Shown here: positions 24,382 through 31,007 of the stretch, in pieces
Layout of the letters: each line of letters starts with the position of its first letter
How positions within the stretch are numbered: the stretch's first letter is position 1
Source of the DNA: a bacterium
GTDB lineage: Bacteria > Acidobacteriota > Aminicenantia > Aminicenantales > Aminicenantaceae
Assembly: GCA_018335295.1 (NCBI GenBank)
Contig: JAGXKI010000018.1
Location: 1 to 40,926 of the forward strand
DNA length: 40,926 bases
Direction of reading: 5' to 3'
Notes under the pieces: model-generated
Databases searched by the model: none
Told to the model about the DNA's origin: nothing
What the model saw: the letters and a program-made list of their open reading frames with translations, nothing else
Position numbers and translations under genes: made by a program

Positions 24382-27300
24382 ATGGGTGCTTTAGAGTGGA
24401 AGAAGGGAATTTGTGGAATTTGTCCGGCCGGCTGTTGGGTGGAAGTGGGGCTTAAGAACGGACGTATTGAGGAAATCCGGGCCGACGAGGATCATCCTTT
24501 AGGGATGATTTGCCGGCGGGGAGAGCATGCTCCCGAAATTGTCTACTCCCCACACCGGCTCCGTTCTCCCCTGAAAAGAGTGGGGGATAAGGGCAACTAC
24601 CGGTTTAAAAAGATAAGCTGGGATGAAGCCTATGAGACCATTGTCAGGAAATTGAATCAGATCAAGGAGGAATCTGGACCCCAAGCGGCCGCTGTGTACA
24701 CCGGTCGGGGAGCCTTTGAGCTTTCCCTGTGCGATATGTACAAACCCAAAGGGACCCCCGTTTCCTCGGCCTCCAATATTCTTTTTCCTTTTGGCTCTCC
24801 CAACACCATGGGAGTGGGAGCTCTCTGTTATGTGTCCTTTGCCATGTTGGCTCCTCATGTGACCATGGGCCGGATGCTTATTGATATGTTCACAGATATC
24901 GAAAATGCGGAACTGCTCCTGATGTGGGGAACAAACCCGGCTACAGATTCTCCTCCTTTGGATATGTTTCGTCTGGAAGAAGCGGCCCGGAGAGGGGCCC
25001 GGATTACAGCGATTGACCCCCGTTGGACCGAAGCTGCTGAACGGACTCAGGCACGGTGGATTCCCATCCGGCCGGGAACAGACGGAGCTCTGGCTTTGAG
25101 TATGATTGAAGTCCTTATTGAGGAAGAACTTTATGATGAAAATTTTGCTCACAACTGGTGCCATGGCTTTGAAGAGCTCAAATCCTACGTCCAGAAATTT
25201 AGACCTCGAGAGGTGGAATCCATAACAGGAGTCCCAGCCCAAACGATTCGGGATTTAACCCATGGCATAGCTGAGGCCAAGGGAGCCTGTCCAGTTATGT
25301 ACACAGGGTTGGAGTATTCCAACAGTGGCCTTCAAGCGATCCGGGCTGTTTTAACCCTGTTTGCTCTGGCCGGACATTTGGATGTGCCGGGTGGGATAGG
25401 ATTGACTATGCCGGATACTCATTTTCCTATCCATAGAACCTGTAACCAAGAAAATCCCTGTCTGGAAAAAGCTGTGGCTAGAGAAAATTTTCCCCTTTAC
25501 AGTGATTACAGGGGAGAATCTCATGCTTCCGGGCTGGTCGGTTCTGTGCTTAAAGGAGAACCTTACCGAACACGAGGTTTGATCATTCAAGGAGGTTCTA
25601 TCTTAACTTCATGGCCTCAGACTTCAATATGGAAAAAGACTCTCTCCCATCTGGATTTTCTGGTCTGTATCGACCGTCAGTTAACCGCTGATTCAGCCTA
25701 TGCAGACATCGTCCTTCCAGCTACCACCATGTTCGAAATCAATTCCTACATGGTTTATGGGCCTATTTTCCGTCTTAGGGAGAAAATTATTGAACCTGTG
25801 GGAGAAGCCCGGAATGATTATCTAATAATGGCCGAGTTGGCCCGAAGGTTGGGCTACGGACACCTTTACCCTCAAACCGAAGAGGCTCTCATCCGTTTTG
25901 CCCTCAAAGATTCGGAATACTCCCTGGAAGATGTACAAAGAAATGGAGGTTGGGTTAAATTACCTACACCGGTTATGGAGTATAAAAAATGGGAGAAGGG
26001 GAGCCTTCGCAGAGACGGTCAATTGGGATTTGATACCCCCACAAAAAAATTCGAGATCTCATCCATAATTCTGGAAGAATACGGGTATGAACCTCTCCCC
26101 AAATACACAGAAGTAAAGGAAGGCCCCTTATCCACTCCGGAAATGGCCAGAGAGTTTCCTTTGGTTTTTAATTCAGGAGCCCGGCCCCAGACAGATTTTC
26201 GTTCTCAGCACCATGGAATAAAGGGATTGGTGAAAGACAATCCTGAACCCACTGTGGAAATCAATACAAAGGATGCCAGAAAAAGGAAAATTGAGACCGG
26301 AGACCTGGTGAGGGTTCGGACTCCCAGAGGAACGGTTCCCTTCCGGGCCCGGGTGACATCTCACATGGTTAAGGGCGCCATAGAATGCAACATGGGAGGA
26401 GGGACTCCGGTAGGACCGAAAGCCTGGCAGGAATGGAATGTCAATGAACTGACTGACCTCGGGAATTATGATGAAATATCCGGTTTTCCGGTGTACAAAG
26501 CTCTTCTTTGTGAGGTGGAAAAGGTCCGTCCGGGCACTCAGGAGGCAAAGAAAAGAGCTCAGTTCAATGCAAAAATGACCCAAAAGGCTCCGCCCGGAGG
26601 GCTTCAACCGGAAAAAAGAAAAAGGGAAATCTACCTGGATAATAATGCCACCACAGGTGTGGATGAGTCCGTACGGGAAGCTATGATTCCTTATCTGGGA
26701 GAAAAGCACGGGAATCCTTCCAGTATTCACCAGATGGGAACCTATGCTGAAAAAGCCACCGATGAAGCCAGGAGAAAGGTGGCCAAACTCTTGAACACAA
26801 AACCACGCCGCATCATATTTACTGGGGGAGGCTCTGAGTCTAATAATCTGGCTTTGAAGGGAGTGGCCTTTGCTTCTAGGGATGAAGGAAACCACATCAT
26901 CACCAGTTCCATAGAGCATCCGGCAAACCTGCGAGCCTGTGAGTTTTTAGAAAGATTTGGATTTAAGGTGACTTACCTGAATGTGGATGAATACGGGTGT
27001 TTTTCGCCTCAAGAACTGGAAAAAGCCATTACTGACCAAACCATTCTGGTCTCCCTCATGACGGCCAATAATGAAGTAGGAACCCTCCTATCTGTCAAAA
27101 AGCTCTCCCAGAAGGCCCATGAAAAGGGGGTTTTGTTTCATACCGATGCCGTTCAGGCAGTGGGTAAAATCGGAGTGGATGTGGAAGCTCAGGATGTGGA
27201 CCTTCTCAGTCTATCCGCGCATAAATTCCACGGTCCTAAAGGAGTGGGGGCCTTGTATGTGCGAAAGGGAGTCAAACTGGAACCTTTGATTCATGGGGGG

Positions 27301-27780
27301 AAACAAGAAAATGGTCTTCGGGCGGGCACACATAACGTTCCGGCTATCGTGGGTTTGGGAAAGGCCGCAGAATTGGCCCTGCATAAACTTCCCGAACTGG
27401 AAAAGACAAAAAAACTGAGGGATAAGCTGGAAAAGGGAATCCGAAAGCTTATTCCTGAAGCCCAACTCAACGGTCATCCAGAAAGGCGGCTGCCCAATAC
27501 TCTTAATCTCACCCTTCCCGGAATCAGAGGGGAATCCCTGGTTATCGCCATGGATCAACAAGGAGTGGCTTTGTCTTCGGGTTCTGCCTGCAAATCCGGG
27601 TCTCCCCAACCCACTCATGTTCTTATGGCGATGGGAAAAAGCGAAGAGGAGGCCCACTGTGCGGTTCGGTTTTCCCTTTCCCGATTCACCACAGAAAAAG
27701 ATATTAAAGATACCCTTTCAGCCCTAAGGCAAGTGCTTCAAAAGATGAAATCCACTGTCCGGTTTCTTCCTTGTAAATAA
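24382..27780 (+). CDS. Molybdopterin oxidoreductase-cysteine desulfurase fusion; candidate metallopterin-dependent ergothioneine synthase
   Basis: A single 1132-codon frame with two enzymes. Residues 1-717 form a molybdopterin (bis-MGD) oxidoreductase: a 4Fe-4S site C11/C14/C18/C44, the motif GVGALCYVS with C149 as likely Mo ligand, and a C-terminal molydopterin dinucleotide-binding barrel (about 590-715; FNSGARPQTDFRSQHHG, CNMGGGTPVGP). A hydrophilic linker of about 30 residues leads to a NifS/IscS domain (749-1132): YLDNNATT, SIEHPANL, LSAHKFHGPKG (PLP lysine K948) and SSGSACKSG (persulfide C1070). An EgtD-type histidine methyltransferase follows after 10 bp. As I recall, a metallopterin enzyme with desulfurase from Caldithrix abyssi makes ergothioneine without O2; this gene fits that type. 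No Tat signal, so cytoplasmic. The start has only a weak Shine-Dalgarno. Alternative: an oxidoreductase carrying its own cofactor-sulfurating domain. Confidence 0.8.
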   Translation: MGALEWKKGICGICPAGCWVEVGLKNGRIEEIRADEDHPLGMICRRGEHAPEIVYSPHRLRSPLKRVGDKGNYRFKKISWDEAYETIVRKLNQIKEESGPQAAAVYTGRGAFELSLCDMYKPKGTPVSSASNILFPFGSPNTMGVGALCYVSFAMLAPHVTMGRMLIDMFTDIENAELLLMWGTNPATDSPPLDMFRLEEAARRGARITAIDPRWTEAAERTQARWIPIRPGTDGALALSMIEVLIEEELYDENFAHNWCHGFEELKSYVQKFRPREVESITGVPAQTIRDLTHGIAEAKGACPVMYTGLEYSNSGLQAIRAVLTLFALAGHLDVPGGIGLTMPDTHFPIHRTCNQENPCLEKAVARENFPLYSDYRGESHASGLVGSVLKGEPYRTRGLIIQGGSILTSWPQTSIWKKTLSHLDFLVCIDRQLTADSAYADIVLPATTMFEINSYMVYGPIFRLREKIIEPVGEARNDYLIMAELARRLGYGHLYPQTEEALIRFALKDSEYSLEDVQRNGGWVKLPTPVMEYKKWEKGSLRRDGQLGFDTPTKKFEISSIILEEYGYEPLPKYTEVKEGPLSTPEMAREFPLVFNSGARPQTDFRSQHHGIKGLVKDNPEPTVEINTKDARKRKIETGDLVRVRTPRGTVPFRARVTSHMVKGAIECNMGGGTPVGPKAWQEWNVNELTDLGNYDEISGFPVYKALLCEVEKVRPGTQEAKKRAQFNAKMTQKAPPGGLQPEKRKREIYLDNNATTGVDESVREAMIPYLGEKHGNPSSIHQMGTYAEKATDEARRKVAKLLNTKPRRIIFTGGGSESNNLALKGVAFASRDEGNHIITSSIEHPANLRACEFLERFGFKVTYLNVDEYGCFSPQELEKAITDQTILVSLMTANNEVGTLLSVKKLSQKAHEKGVLFHTDAVQAVGKIGVDVEAQDVDLLSLSAHKFHGPKGVGALYVRKGVKLEPLIHGGKQENGLRAGTHNVPAIVGLGKAAELALHKLPELEKTKKLRDKLEKGIRKLIPEAQLNGHPERRLPNTLNLTLPGIRGESLVIAMDQQGVALSSGSACKSGSPQPTHVLMAMGKSEEEAHCAVRFSLSRFTTEKDIKDTLSALRQVLQKMKSTVRFLPCK

Positions 27781-27790
27781 GGAGAGAAAA

Positions 27791-28795
27791 ATGAGCGCGA
27801 ATTACCGTGTATTAAAAGATAAAGATTTGGAGAAAGCAATCTCTCCAGAACATACATTTTCTTCTGATGTGCTGGTGGGACTCTCCAAAAATATTAAAAG
27901 AATACCCTCTTACTATTTTTATGACCGGAAGGGAAGCCAGTTGTTTCAGAAAATCATGGACCTCCCCGAATATTACCTTACCCCGTGTGAATTTGAAATC
28001 CTAAGAACCAAAAAAGAAGAATTTAGCCGGCTTATGAAAGGAGAACCTTTCAATCTCGTTGAGCTGGGGGCTGGGGATGGGCGTAAAACAAGCATATTGA
28101 TCGATCATTTTTTAAAACGTGGATTGCAGTTCAAATATGTTCCTATTGACATTTCTGAATCCGCCATGGAAGGACTCACCCGATTTCTAGGAAAAGAATT
28201 TCCCCACCTTGAAGTAGAAGGAATCGTGGCCGAGTATTTTGATGGGATCAAGTGGCTGAACCATCTGAATTACAGGAAAAACCTGGTCCTTTTTTTGGGA
28301 TCCAGCCTGGGAAATTTTGACAAAATCCAATCACGAGTGTTTTTGCATAATCTCTGGAATTCTTTACAGAACGGAGATTATGTGGTGATGGGGTTTGATT
28401 TGAAAAAGGAAATCAATCTGATGCTCAAAGCCTACAATGATTCCCAAGGCCTAACCAGTGAGTTTAACTTAAATTTGTTGAGGCGGATCAACCGGGAACT
28501 AGGAGGAAATTTTGATTTGAATAAATTCCGTCATTACTCCAGCTATGATGTGTTTACGGGGGCAATGGAAAGTTATCTGGTGAGCTTGGAAAAACAGACG
28601 GTTTTTTTGGAGACGATCGGGCAGTCTTTCACTTTTGAGGAATGGGAGCCCATCCACACTGAATATTCTTACAAGTATTTGGAATCCGACATCATAAGTC
28701 TGGCTCGAGAGACTGGTTTTGGTATAGAAAAGCAGCTCTATGATTCAAAGAAATATTTTGTCGACTCCATATGGCGGGTGGAAAAAGCCGAATAG
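27791..28795 (+). CDS. egtD: L-histidine N-alpha-methyltransferase (EgtD family)
   Basis: Predicted to trimethylate histidine to hercynine with three S-adenosylmethionine molecules, the first step to ergothioneine. The 334-aa protein has the family pattern FYDRKGSQLFQKIMDLPEYY (Y44, Y61/Y62 region), the SAM-binding ELGAGDGRKT (91-100), GSSLGNF (N175, matching the histidine-binding Asn) and TEYSYKY (E291, S293, matching the Glu-x-Ser that holds the amino group). The usual 'EM' near position 260 reads ES here by my alignment, so substrate preference deserves checking. AAGGAG lies before the ATG. It is tightly linked to the upstream fusion gene and the downstream membrane gene. No EgtB/EgtC, the oxygen-dependent partners, is present in the window. 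Confidence 0.88.
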   Translation: MSANYRVLKDKDLEKAISPEHTFSSDVLVGLSKNIKRIPSYYFYDRKGSQLFQKIMDLPEYYLTPCEFEILRTKKEEFSRLMKGEPFNLVELGAGDGRKTSILIDHFLKRGLQFKYVPIDISESAMEGLTRFLGKEFPHLEVEGIVAEYFDGIKWLNHLNYRKNLVLFLGSSLGNFDKIQSRVFLHNLWNSLQNGDYVVMGFDLKKEINLMLKAYNDSQGLTSEFNLNLLRRINRELGGNFDLNKFRHYSSYDVFTGAMESYLVSLEKQTVFLETIGQSFTFEEWEPIHTEYSYKYLESDIISLARETGFGIEKQLYDSKKYFVDSIWRVEKAE

Positions 28796-28807
28796 CTGCA
28801 GACATTT

Positions 28808-29428
28808 ATGAAAAAGGATATGGACATGAGAAAAATATCTGTAAGAGTCCCCCTGAATTTATGGATTCCTTTGTTCTGGGGCTCTCTATGGGGGATAACT
28901 GAAGCCTCTCTAGGGCATGTGTTTCATATGATAAGAATTCCCGGTCTTCCTGGCCTTTTGATGTTTCCGGCAGCCTTATTTTTTATGGTCAAGGCTTATG
29001 AGAGATGGACCGGGAAGATCACCATTTTTTTAACCTCCCTTGTAGCGGCTTCTTTTAAATTCATGGATTTGATGGTTCCTCCCCATGACTTTTGGGCGGT
29101 TCTCAATCCGGCTATGGCTATCCTCTGCGAATCATTGGCCCTAGTTCTTTTCCTTACTATCTGGAAGAAACAGGAGCTTTGGAAGCTGAAATCTCTGTGG
29201 TCTTTAGCGGTGGGGTGGAAAATATTATATGCTTTGTTTTTGACTCCTTTGGGTCTCTTTCTTCAAGGAGAGAGCTTTTTCCAGATGGAGATTATCCGTT
29301 TGTTTCGTTTTTTCATCGGAGAAAGTTTCCTTCAGGGATTGGGGATCTATTTATGGATTCAAATGTCCTCAGGACTTCCTTTTTTGAAAAATTATTTAAG
29401 AACGAAGAAAGAAAATTACCTAGGTTAA
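28808..29428 (+). CDS. Membrane protein of unknown function, third gene of the egtD operon
   Basis: A 206-aa protein with about five to six membrane segments, at roughly 18-35, 45-62, 70-90, 96-118, 127-150 and 170-190. It begins LWIPLFWGSLWGITEASLGH and contains PGLPGLLMFPAALFF. No catalytic motif was seen. The pattern is loosely like small substrate-binding components of ECF-type uptake systems, but that is only an impression. In-frame ATGs at 28808, 28820 and 28826 compete; the last has AAGGA at good distance. It lies 12 bp after egtD and ends 4 bp from the convergent mobA, so it is part of the ergothioneine-type operon and may move a substrate or product. Confidence 0.7.
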   Translation: MKKDMDMRKISVRVPLNLWIPLFWGSLWGITEASLGHVFHMIRIPGLPGLLMFPAALFFMVKAYERWTGKITIFLTSLVAASFKFMDLMVPPHDFWAVLNPAMAILCESLALVLFLTIWKKQELWKLKSLWSLAVGWKILYALFLTPLGLFLQGESFFQMEIIRLFRFFIGESFLQGLGIYLWIQMSSGLPFLKNYLRTKKENYLG

Positions 29429-29432
29429 GAGG

Positions 29433-30029
29433 TTATTCCTTAATTTGTTTCAAAAATTGTTCATAATCTTCTTTGGTGTTCAGGTTTTGAAACCAACTCC
29501 CTTCCTTTATTGGGATCACTCGGGTGCGGCAGTGATGCAATAAAGGGAGGAGAGAGCGGATTCCTGACTCCAGAAGATTCTGGATAACCGGCAGCACAGA
29601 CTTGGAATACACGGCAAAAAGGGGCTCCAGCCGACCTCCTGGAGAACAGGGAACCACGATATCCCAGTTTTCCGCGGTCTGAATCATCTTTTCCAGAAAA
29701 GAGAGACGAACATAGGGAATATCGCAGGCAGTGACAAAAATTTTAGGATGTTTAGAAAAAGGCATAGTGGTTTTGAGACCCATCATGGGACCTTCTCCGG
29801 GCACTTCATCCTCAACAAGAGTGTAGGGCAGAAATTCAAATTGCTCCTTTTGGGACACACTGATTAAGATATCATCGAAATGGTCCTTTAGCTGCCGGAG
29901 GAGGTGTTCGATGAGGGTGCCCTCTGGTGTCGGAAGAAGGGCCTTGTATCTTTTCATCCGGCGGCTGAGCCCTCCGGTCAGAACAATTAAACTGAGGGGT
30001 TGACCCTGACAGAGGTATAATTTTTTCAT
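29433..30029 (-). CDS. mobA: Molybdenum cofactor guanylyltransferase MobA
   Basis: Transfers GMP from GTP to molybdopterin, making the guanine dinucleotide form used by bis-MGD enzymes. The 198-aa protein has the nucleotide loop LTGGLSRRMKRYKALLP (consensus LAGGxSxRMGxDKALL), VEDEVPGEGPMMGL and the metal-binding FVTACDIPYVR. The family Gly after RM is Lys26, and the usual Asp before the catalytic lysine is Tyr28. Its position, convergent with and 4 bp from the operon that encodes a metallopterin enzyme, supports a shared need for the cofactor. Other cofactor genes are not in the window. Shine-Dalgarno is weak. Confidence 0.88.
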   Translation of the reverse strand: MKKLYLCQGQPLSLIVLTGGLSRRMKRYKALLPTPEGTLIEHLLRQLKDHFDDILISVSQKEQFEFLPYTLVEDEVPGEGPMMGLKTTMPFSKHPKIFVTACDIPYVRLSFLEKMIQTAENWDIVVPCSPGGRLEPLFAVYSKSVLPVIQNLLESGIRSLLPLLHHCRTRVIPIKEGSWFQNLNTKEDYEQFLKQIKE

Positions 30030-30122: not shown

Positions 30123-31007
30123 ATGGATTCTTTGAAAAAGCTGATTTCTCCTCAATATCCGCGTCTTGTTAACCGGGTTAAAAAGATCATCGAACGTTCA
30201 GAAAAGGATTTTTCCCCGGATCTGAGTGAATCAAAAGAAAGTTTCCTTTGGGAGCACACCGTTTTGGTGAGTTCTCTAGCTAAAAGGATCTGCTCTATGG
30301 AAGGGGAGGATCCCTTTTTGGTCGTTGTCGCAGCTCTCTTTCATGATGTAGGGAAATTCTATGGAGGAGAATACCATAAAGAGGAGACTCCTGAAGAACA
30401 CCTTTCTTCCCGAATCGCTAAGGATATTCTTTCAAAGGAAGGTATGGAAGAAGAAAAAATAAAAAAGATTACATCGAGTCTGGAAGCCCTTTATAATGAA
30501 AATAAATCGAAAAACAGGATAGCCGATGTTGTTCATGATTCCGATTTTTTGGCTAAAACCGGTTTCACCGGAGCGGCTCAATTTTTTATCAAGACTACAT
30601 TGAGAAAGCAACCTATGATTAAATCTCTTGTTCAATCTTCCAGCAAAGAGATGACCTATGCTTCGGTTCTGCCTCGGAATATGCGCACCAAGGCCGGCAA
30701 AAAAATGGCTTATAAAAACCGGAAGAATACTCTTTCCTTTTTCAAAGGACTTTTTCAGGAACTGGAAGATCGGGGGATCATCCGATTTGTGATAAAAGAA
30801 GTTTTTTTGCCTTCGCCCAAAGATCCGCAAAAATCTATCAAAGTTATGATTGTTCTCCCCCAGACCTGTCCAGAATGTCAAGGGGCTATCGGAGTCAATT
30901 ATTCATCCAAAAAAGGAATCAAGTGCACCAAATTGATCGCCAATATGAAATGCCGAAAATGTTCCCAAAAGTATAAAACATCCTTCTGCCTTCCCGAGGT
31001 CTCATAG
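30123..31007 (+). CDS. HD-domain phosphohydrolase with C-terminal zinc ribbon
   Basis: The 294-aa protein carries an HD domain (about 40-150): H45 in WEHTVLVSSLA, the doublet H74-D75 in ALFHDVGKF, and D139 in VVHDSDFLA. Such domains hydrolyse phosphomonoesters or nucleotides. Two C-terminal CxxC pairs (CPEC about 252, CRKC about 280) suggest a zinc ribbon that could bind nucleic acid. The combination is not one I can name. GAGGT precedes the ATG. It is transcribed away from mobA, with about 90 bp between the starts. The substrate is unknown. Confidence 0.7.
   Translation: MDSLKKLISPQYPRLVNRVKKIIERSEKDFSPDLSESKESFLWEHTVLVSSLAKRICSMEGEDPFLVVVAALFHDVGKFYGGEYHKEETPEEHLSSRIAKDILSKEGMEEEKIKKITSSLEALYNENKSKNRIADVVHDSDFLAKTGFTGAAQFFIKTTLRKQPMIKSLVQSSSKEMTYASVLPRNMRTKAGKKMAYKNRKNTLSFFKGLFQELEDRGIIRFVIKEVFLPSPKDPQKSIKVMIVLPQTCPECQGAIGVNYSSKKGIKCTKLIANMKCRKCSQKYKTSFCLPEVS

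Follow-up and report, generated by a model that had tools for sequence, protein, structure and literature searches.

The MES-egtD locus

We analyzed the window, i.e., a stretch of 40,926 nt from an uncultured bacterium of the order Aminicenantales (contig JAGXKI010000018.1 of assembly GCA_018335295.1, forward strand), for an operon with a putative route to ergothioneine. The window is contig C17 of the host genome (G000), a metagenome-assembled genome (MAG) of 2.54 Mb in 107 contigs that is 93% complete (genomes, contigs and loci of this study are labeled G, C and L). The operon starts with a gene for a candidate metallopterin-dependent ergothioneine synthase (MES; 24382..27780, + strand, 1,132 aa), which is followed after 10 bp by a gene for a candidate EgtD, i.e., a histidine N-alpha-trimethyltransferase (27791..28795, + strand, 334 aa). 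Judged by their sequences, the two genes very likely encode a canonical MES and its EgtD and would thus provide an O2-independent route to ergothioneine. The reference for this assignment is CaMES of Caldithrix abyssi, described by Beliaeva and Seebeck (2022, PMC9516567), in which a metallopterin (MPT) module is fused to a cysteine desulfurase and whose gene occurs together with one for a histidine methyltransferase.

The MES open reading frame (ORF) is intact, i.e., open over all 1,132 residues, and comprises an MPT module (residues ~1-715), a linker and a pyridoxal phosphate (PLP)-dependent cysteine desulfurase module (~750-1132). The respective Pfam domains are Molybdop_Fe4S4 (5-56), Molybdopterin (59-488), Molydop_binding (601-707) and Aminotran_5 (750-1109). 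This order and the intact frame confirm the initial annotation, which had reported an oxidoreductase of the bis-molybdopterin guanine dinucleotide (bis-MGD) type and a cysteine desulfurase in one frame. Among solved structures, acetylene hydratase (2e7z) comes closest to the MPT module in sequence (E=1e-65) and in predicted fold. The desulfurase module is matched by NifS/IscS in both respects, as has been described for CaMES, and reaches 515 bits with TIGR03402, which is below the NifS equivalog cut-off (530.75).

Mutants of CaMES in K952, C1074, C1135 or C153 lose ergothioneine production (PMC9516567). These four positions and five further cysteines, i.e., nine CaMES-numbered residues in total, are all present in the window MES. 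The 4Fe-4S site is formed by C11, C14, C18 and C44 (CaMES C14, C17, C21 and C48), whose codons lie within 24412..24513 (+ strand). On the same strand follow the codons of the Mo/W ligand C149 (24826..24828; CaMES C153), the PLP lysine K948 (27223..27225; K952), the desulfurase persulfide cysteine C1070 (27589..27591; C1074) and the C-terminal relay cysteine C1131 (27772..27774; C1135); the ninth residue is C1093 (C1097). The numbering offset between both proteins is constant at 4 from C44 through C1131, the last residue but one. An alignment of 38 full-length homologues shows all four FeS cysteines, C149, K948, C1070 and C1131 to be invariant and C1093 to be conserved in more than 90%. The positions of C149, K948 and C1070 given in the initial annotation were correct, and its 4Fe-4S site can be assigned to C11/C14/C18/C44.

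The second gene product matches PF10017 (E=1.2e-96) and scores above the TIGR03438 cut-off (302.5 vs. 290.9 bits). It keeps Y44, F52, Y61, N175, Y215, T222, E291 and S293, which are the equivalents of the histidine-site residues Y39, F47, Y56, N166, Y206, T213, E282 and S284 of mycobacterial EgtD. With regard to histidine methylation, on which the initial annotation had made its reading depend, the residues of the histidine pocket are kept at sequence level.

Placement of MES and alternative redox function

The initial annotation had proposed a tree of the metallopterin domain together with formate dehydrogenases (FDH) and polysulfide reductases (PSR). For the MPT module, we computed a quick tree by maximum likelihood, the long outgroup branches of which make the order of the outgroups not trustworthy. 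CaMES is not part of the tree as a named row, while other Calditrichota MES are included; a search for the exact CaMES residue numbering among the fetched loci gave no match. The window MES belongs to the one MES clade, which has 54 rows (SH-aLRT 98), and has the Aminicenantes loci L053 (nearest) and L054 as neighbors there. The closest MES genes come from two MAGs titled Candidatus Aminicenantes, and it is on these neighbors that the Aminicenantes label of the host is based. Outside this clade lie the DMSO-reductase-like enzymes of the order itself as well as acetylene hydratase, polysulfide reductase and formate dehydrogenases.

The tree also bears on an alternative in which the metallopterin protein would have a redox function of the FDH or sulfur reductase type, with a desulfurase that sulfurates only the enzyme's cofactor and with EgtD as an unrelated neighbor. 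The window MES does show distant similarity to FDH, PSR and dimethyl sulfoxide (DMSO) reductase, and a desulfurase-less sister group (see below) occurs in genomes without EgtD. An FDH or PSR identity is nevertheless rejected by the position of the MPT module inside MES. Furthermore, no genes for FeS subunits or NrfD are found in the operon beside MES, EgtD and MES are linked at the genome level, and the Caldithrix enzyme, which has the same residues, produces ergothioneine (PMC9516567). We therefore regard a redox function as highly improbable and keep the assignment to MES.

The sister group consists of MES-like metallopterin enzymes without desulfurase (L113:7995-10205, L119:7989-10199, L114:8010-10217, L052:7914-10082), which stem from Desulfatibacillum (L113, L119; Desulfatibacillum alkenivorans among them), L114 and G037. 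They show 49-52% identity and have kept the FeS and Mo cysteines, while the desulfurase is absent. EgtD is found in 0/4 of their genomes. Three of the four end in the conserved, cysteine-bearing tail DP(T/S)LGCVG, and 3/4 of the genes follow a gene for a class I S-adenosylmethionine-dependent methyltransferase with a Trm112-like N-terminus. The substrate of these enzymes is probably not hercynine, and they are possibly different sulfur-transfer enzymes.

According to the published list, MES is known from about 55 genomes (PMC9516567). Our survey around the window finds MES genomes in more than a dozen phyla, and a further MES genome of the host's phylum (L077, same locus as G279) is titled Acidobacteria. 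Within the host's order, the MES of G256 and the window MES fall into different halves of the MES tree, which speaks for a separate acquisition by horizontal transfer. Two side observations concern other MES loci. In the single-contig genome G335 (74% complete), MES on contig C1 is interrupted precisely between residues 344 and 345 (L025, L033), and its two parts lie on opposite strands at a distance of about 1 Mb, due to an inversion or a misassembly. In Dehalococcoidia (L058, L066, L072, L088, L107), MES and EgtD repeatedly have a DinB/mycothiol-transferase-like gene (~175 aa) as a neighbor.

Co-occurrence with EgtD and absence of EgtB

EgtD exceeds its cut-off in 43/47 tested genomes with MES compared to 160/390 genomes of the phylum sample without MES (p=9e-12; since the genomes are related and kinship is uncorrected, p-values are indicative only). 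Respective values for the host's order are 2/2 and 0/24. The MES genomes without detected EgtD are G425 (L083), G430 (L091), G399 and G400, where MAG gaps or an uptake of hercynine come into consideration. At the level of loci, we counted neighbors at 66 other MES loci based on all ORFs; EgtD lies inside the fetched stretch at 25 of them.

The initial annotation had noted that EgtB is absent from the window. This holds for the whole 93%-complete host genome, in which no EgtB is found. The only rhodanese gene of the host encodes 165 aa, which we take to be too short for EanB.

MES has been stated in print to be exclusive to anaerobes. We find EgtB above the NCBI cut-off in 7/47 MES genomes (G432, G414, G418, G419, G426, G437, G442). 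One of these is the isolate Thiorhodococcus mannitoliphagus (G432, the genome of L094), which carries MES and in which EgtD and EgtB adjoin; the other six are MAGs, for which contamination is possible. Given these genomes, the statement may need qualification. The role of ergothioneine without oxygen becomes testable in cultured hosts, e.g., in T. mannitoliphagus with both routes.

Proposed mechanism

For CaMES, sulfur transfer from the enzyme's own desulfurase is intramolecular, while the Mo-sulfido chemistry is a proposal of its authors (PMC9516567). Function and mechanism of the window MES are inferred from the identity of its active-site residues with those of CaMES. That is, EgtD would convert histidine to N-alpha-trimethylhistidine (hercynine), and the C-terminal desulfurase with PLP on K948 would transfer the sulfur of cysteine to C1070 as a persulfide. 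The sulfur would then pass via C1131 to the Mo/W bis-MGD center held by C149, where an attack of the imidazole C2 on the terminal sulfido ligand would yield ergothioneine without O2.

The nine residues, the tree and the histidine pocket of EgtD support the O2-independent route by MES and EgtD that the initial annotation had suggested. Its further claim that the fused form extends the pathway does not stand, since the Caldithrix enzyme already is this fusion, with intramolecular transfer shown (PMC9516567). The two-gene route in the window is known but uncommon, and the fusion is not new. What the window adds is a further candidate for a rare and chemically unusual C-S bond forming molybdo-enzyme, in a barely studied anaerobic lineage that may, as the initial annotation had claimed, be new to the pathway.

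Model quality, shared history and cofactor supply

Several observations weigh against this assignment. First, the AlphaFold model of MES is of moderate quality (pLDDT 75) and poorest near the cysteines of the Mo site and the C-terminus. Second, the window EgtD shares only about 40% identity with the EgtDs of more distant MES hosts; thus, MES and EgtD are not of one shared history throughout. Third, two genes for pterin cofactor synthesis were not detected in the host: no moaA exceeds the cut-off in G000, where the best match is a SPASM-type radical SAM protein, and no MoaC is found in this 93%-complete MAG.

Taken at face value, the third point would imply that the host is unable to make the pterin cofactor, such that MES would have no activity or would rely on cofactor import. 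MoaC is also not found in G396 and G256, i.e., the two other genomes that combine MES with a long form of the membrane protein described below, whereas the relatives G397, G146, G186 and G072 carry it. Two genomes speak against this reading: G154 lacks MoaC though it also lacks MES, and in G072 MoaC coexists with a short membrane homologue. In addition, the host encodes further Mo enzymes, i.e., a xanthine-dehydrogenase type with XdhC on C63 and an FDH type on C65, as well as MobA. With at least two further Mo enzymes, the cofactor must come from somewhere. Two of the relatives with MoaC have moeA-moaA-moaC-mogA side by side in a cluster, so a single gap in the 93%-complete MAG could remove all of them; the check for absence of moeA and mogA covers 1.34 Mb, about half of the host genome. 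An assembly gap is therefore the likeliest cause of the missing moaA and moaC, and we consider a host without own cofactor to be improbable.

Membrane protein and molybdenum-enzyme locus

The third gene of the operon (28808..29428, + strand) starts 12 bp behind EgtD and, by this spacing, belongs to the same transcription unit. It encodes a membrane protein of an unnamed family (206 aa, ~4-6 predicted helices). Convergent with the operon, a MobA-like molybdenum cofactor guanylyltransferase is encoded (29433..30029, - strand), an activity needed for bis-MGD; with 93 bits for TIGR02665 (cut-off 151.85) the protein is a MobA homologue, not the curated equivalog. It is followed by an HD-domain phosphohydrolase with a possible zinc ribbon (30123..31007, + strand), which is kept beside MobA in the order's molybdenum-enzyme loci.

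The membrane protein has no Pfam or NCBIfam match, six family members are without significant Pfam match, and no homologues are found among viral contigs. An AlphaFold model of the membrane protein, computed with two sequences, shows six helices with a pLDDT of 47, which is too poor for a fold search. The family occurs in short (~130 aa) and long (~210 aa) forms and is characterized by the motif WGxxWGxxEATLGHxxH...IPGLxGLxMFP, further on followed by NPAxAIL (window; L035-L045, L166-L185). Profile searches detect it in 49/94 genomes of the order, with a strong (>100 bits) and a weak group of matches.

The initial annotation had seen the membrane protein as a partner in the ergothioneine pathway. 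Such a dedicated partner could be, e.g., a transporter of hercynine or ergothioneine or an anchor of MES. This is in line with the tight spacing to EgtD on the same strand and with the independent Aminicenantes MAG L053, which shows the same order of MES, EgtD and membrane protein, the convergent MobA and then the HD protein; since an independent genome has this order, the arrangement is not chance. A homologue is found, however, at only 1/66 other MES loci, and for this reason the protein is unlikely to be part of ergothioneine synthesis. In G256 from the same order, MES and EgtD are located on contig C1, while the membrane homologue lies on C4 within an operon of the DMSO-reductase family.

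The genomic context of the homologues outside MES loci points to a different role. Here, 23/31 adjoin other Mo enzymes, of which 16 belong to the DMSO-reductase and 7 to the xanthine-dehydrogenase family. In the 16 former cases, the homologue is placed immediately before the catalytic subunit or overlaps with it; mostly, genes for FeS and NrfD subunits come next, and several of these loci also contain MobA and the HD protein. The rest is found near a class V aminotransferase (3) or has none of these neighbors (5). Given three Mo-enzyme loci in the 1.34 Mb of host sequence read (about half of the genome), chance adjacency should be in the range of a few percent, an estimate that is based on the host's locus density.

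Based on the 1/66 MES loci and the family's position beside other Mo enzymes, we rejected the membrane protein as a partner of MES and consider a dedicated role in the pathway unlikely. Instead, its role is probably a general one for molybdenum enzymes, which is the best-supported guess from its neighborhoods. A more far-reaching version, in which an undescribed membrane family would serve at least three kinds of Mo enzymes (DMSO-reductase family, xanthine-dehydrogenase family and MES), e.g., by transport of metal, sulfur or cofactor across the membrane, and, in its strongest form, would import pterin cofactor from other organisms in genomes that, as it seems for the host, have no moaA and moaC, is quite a long shot. 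The unnamed family is a concrete target for studying how molybdenum enzymes are served.

The window, L053 and the order's other Mo-enzyme loci have MobA and the HD protein in common, and MES-egtD thus stands at a Mo-enzyme locus of the order. That is, it sits at the order's locus type composed of membrane protein, Mo enzyme, MobA and HD protein, here without genes for the reductase, FeS and NrfD subunits.

Comparison with known systems

Acetylene hydratase of Syntrophotalea (Pelobacter) acetylenica (2e7z) is the closest solved relative of the MPT module; it has no desulfurase and is placed on a long branch outside MES. NifS/IscS resemble the C-terminal module, from which they are distinguished by the fusion and the C-terminal relay cysteine of MES.

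The EgtD proteins of Mycolicibacterium smegmatis and M. tuberculosis (4pim, 7scf) belong to the same family as the window EgtD, which shares their histidine-site residues and scores above the TIGR03438 cut-off. In contrast to the mycobacterial proteins, Met252 is replaced by Ser261, and the partner is MES instead of EgtB.

The window MES resembles CaMES in domain order, length (1132 vs. 1136 residues), 4Fe-4S cysteines, Mo cysteine, PLP lysine, the relay cysteines with their constant spacing and the co-encoded histidine methyltransferase. It differs in that the host belongs to another phylum and in that the membrane protein of the molybdenum locus and a convergent MobA come next.

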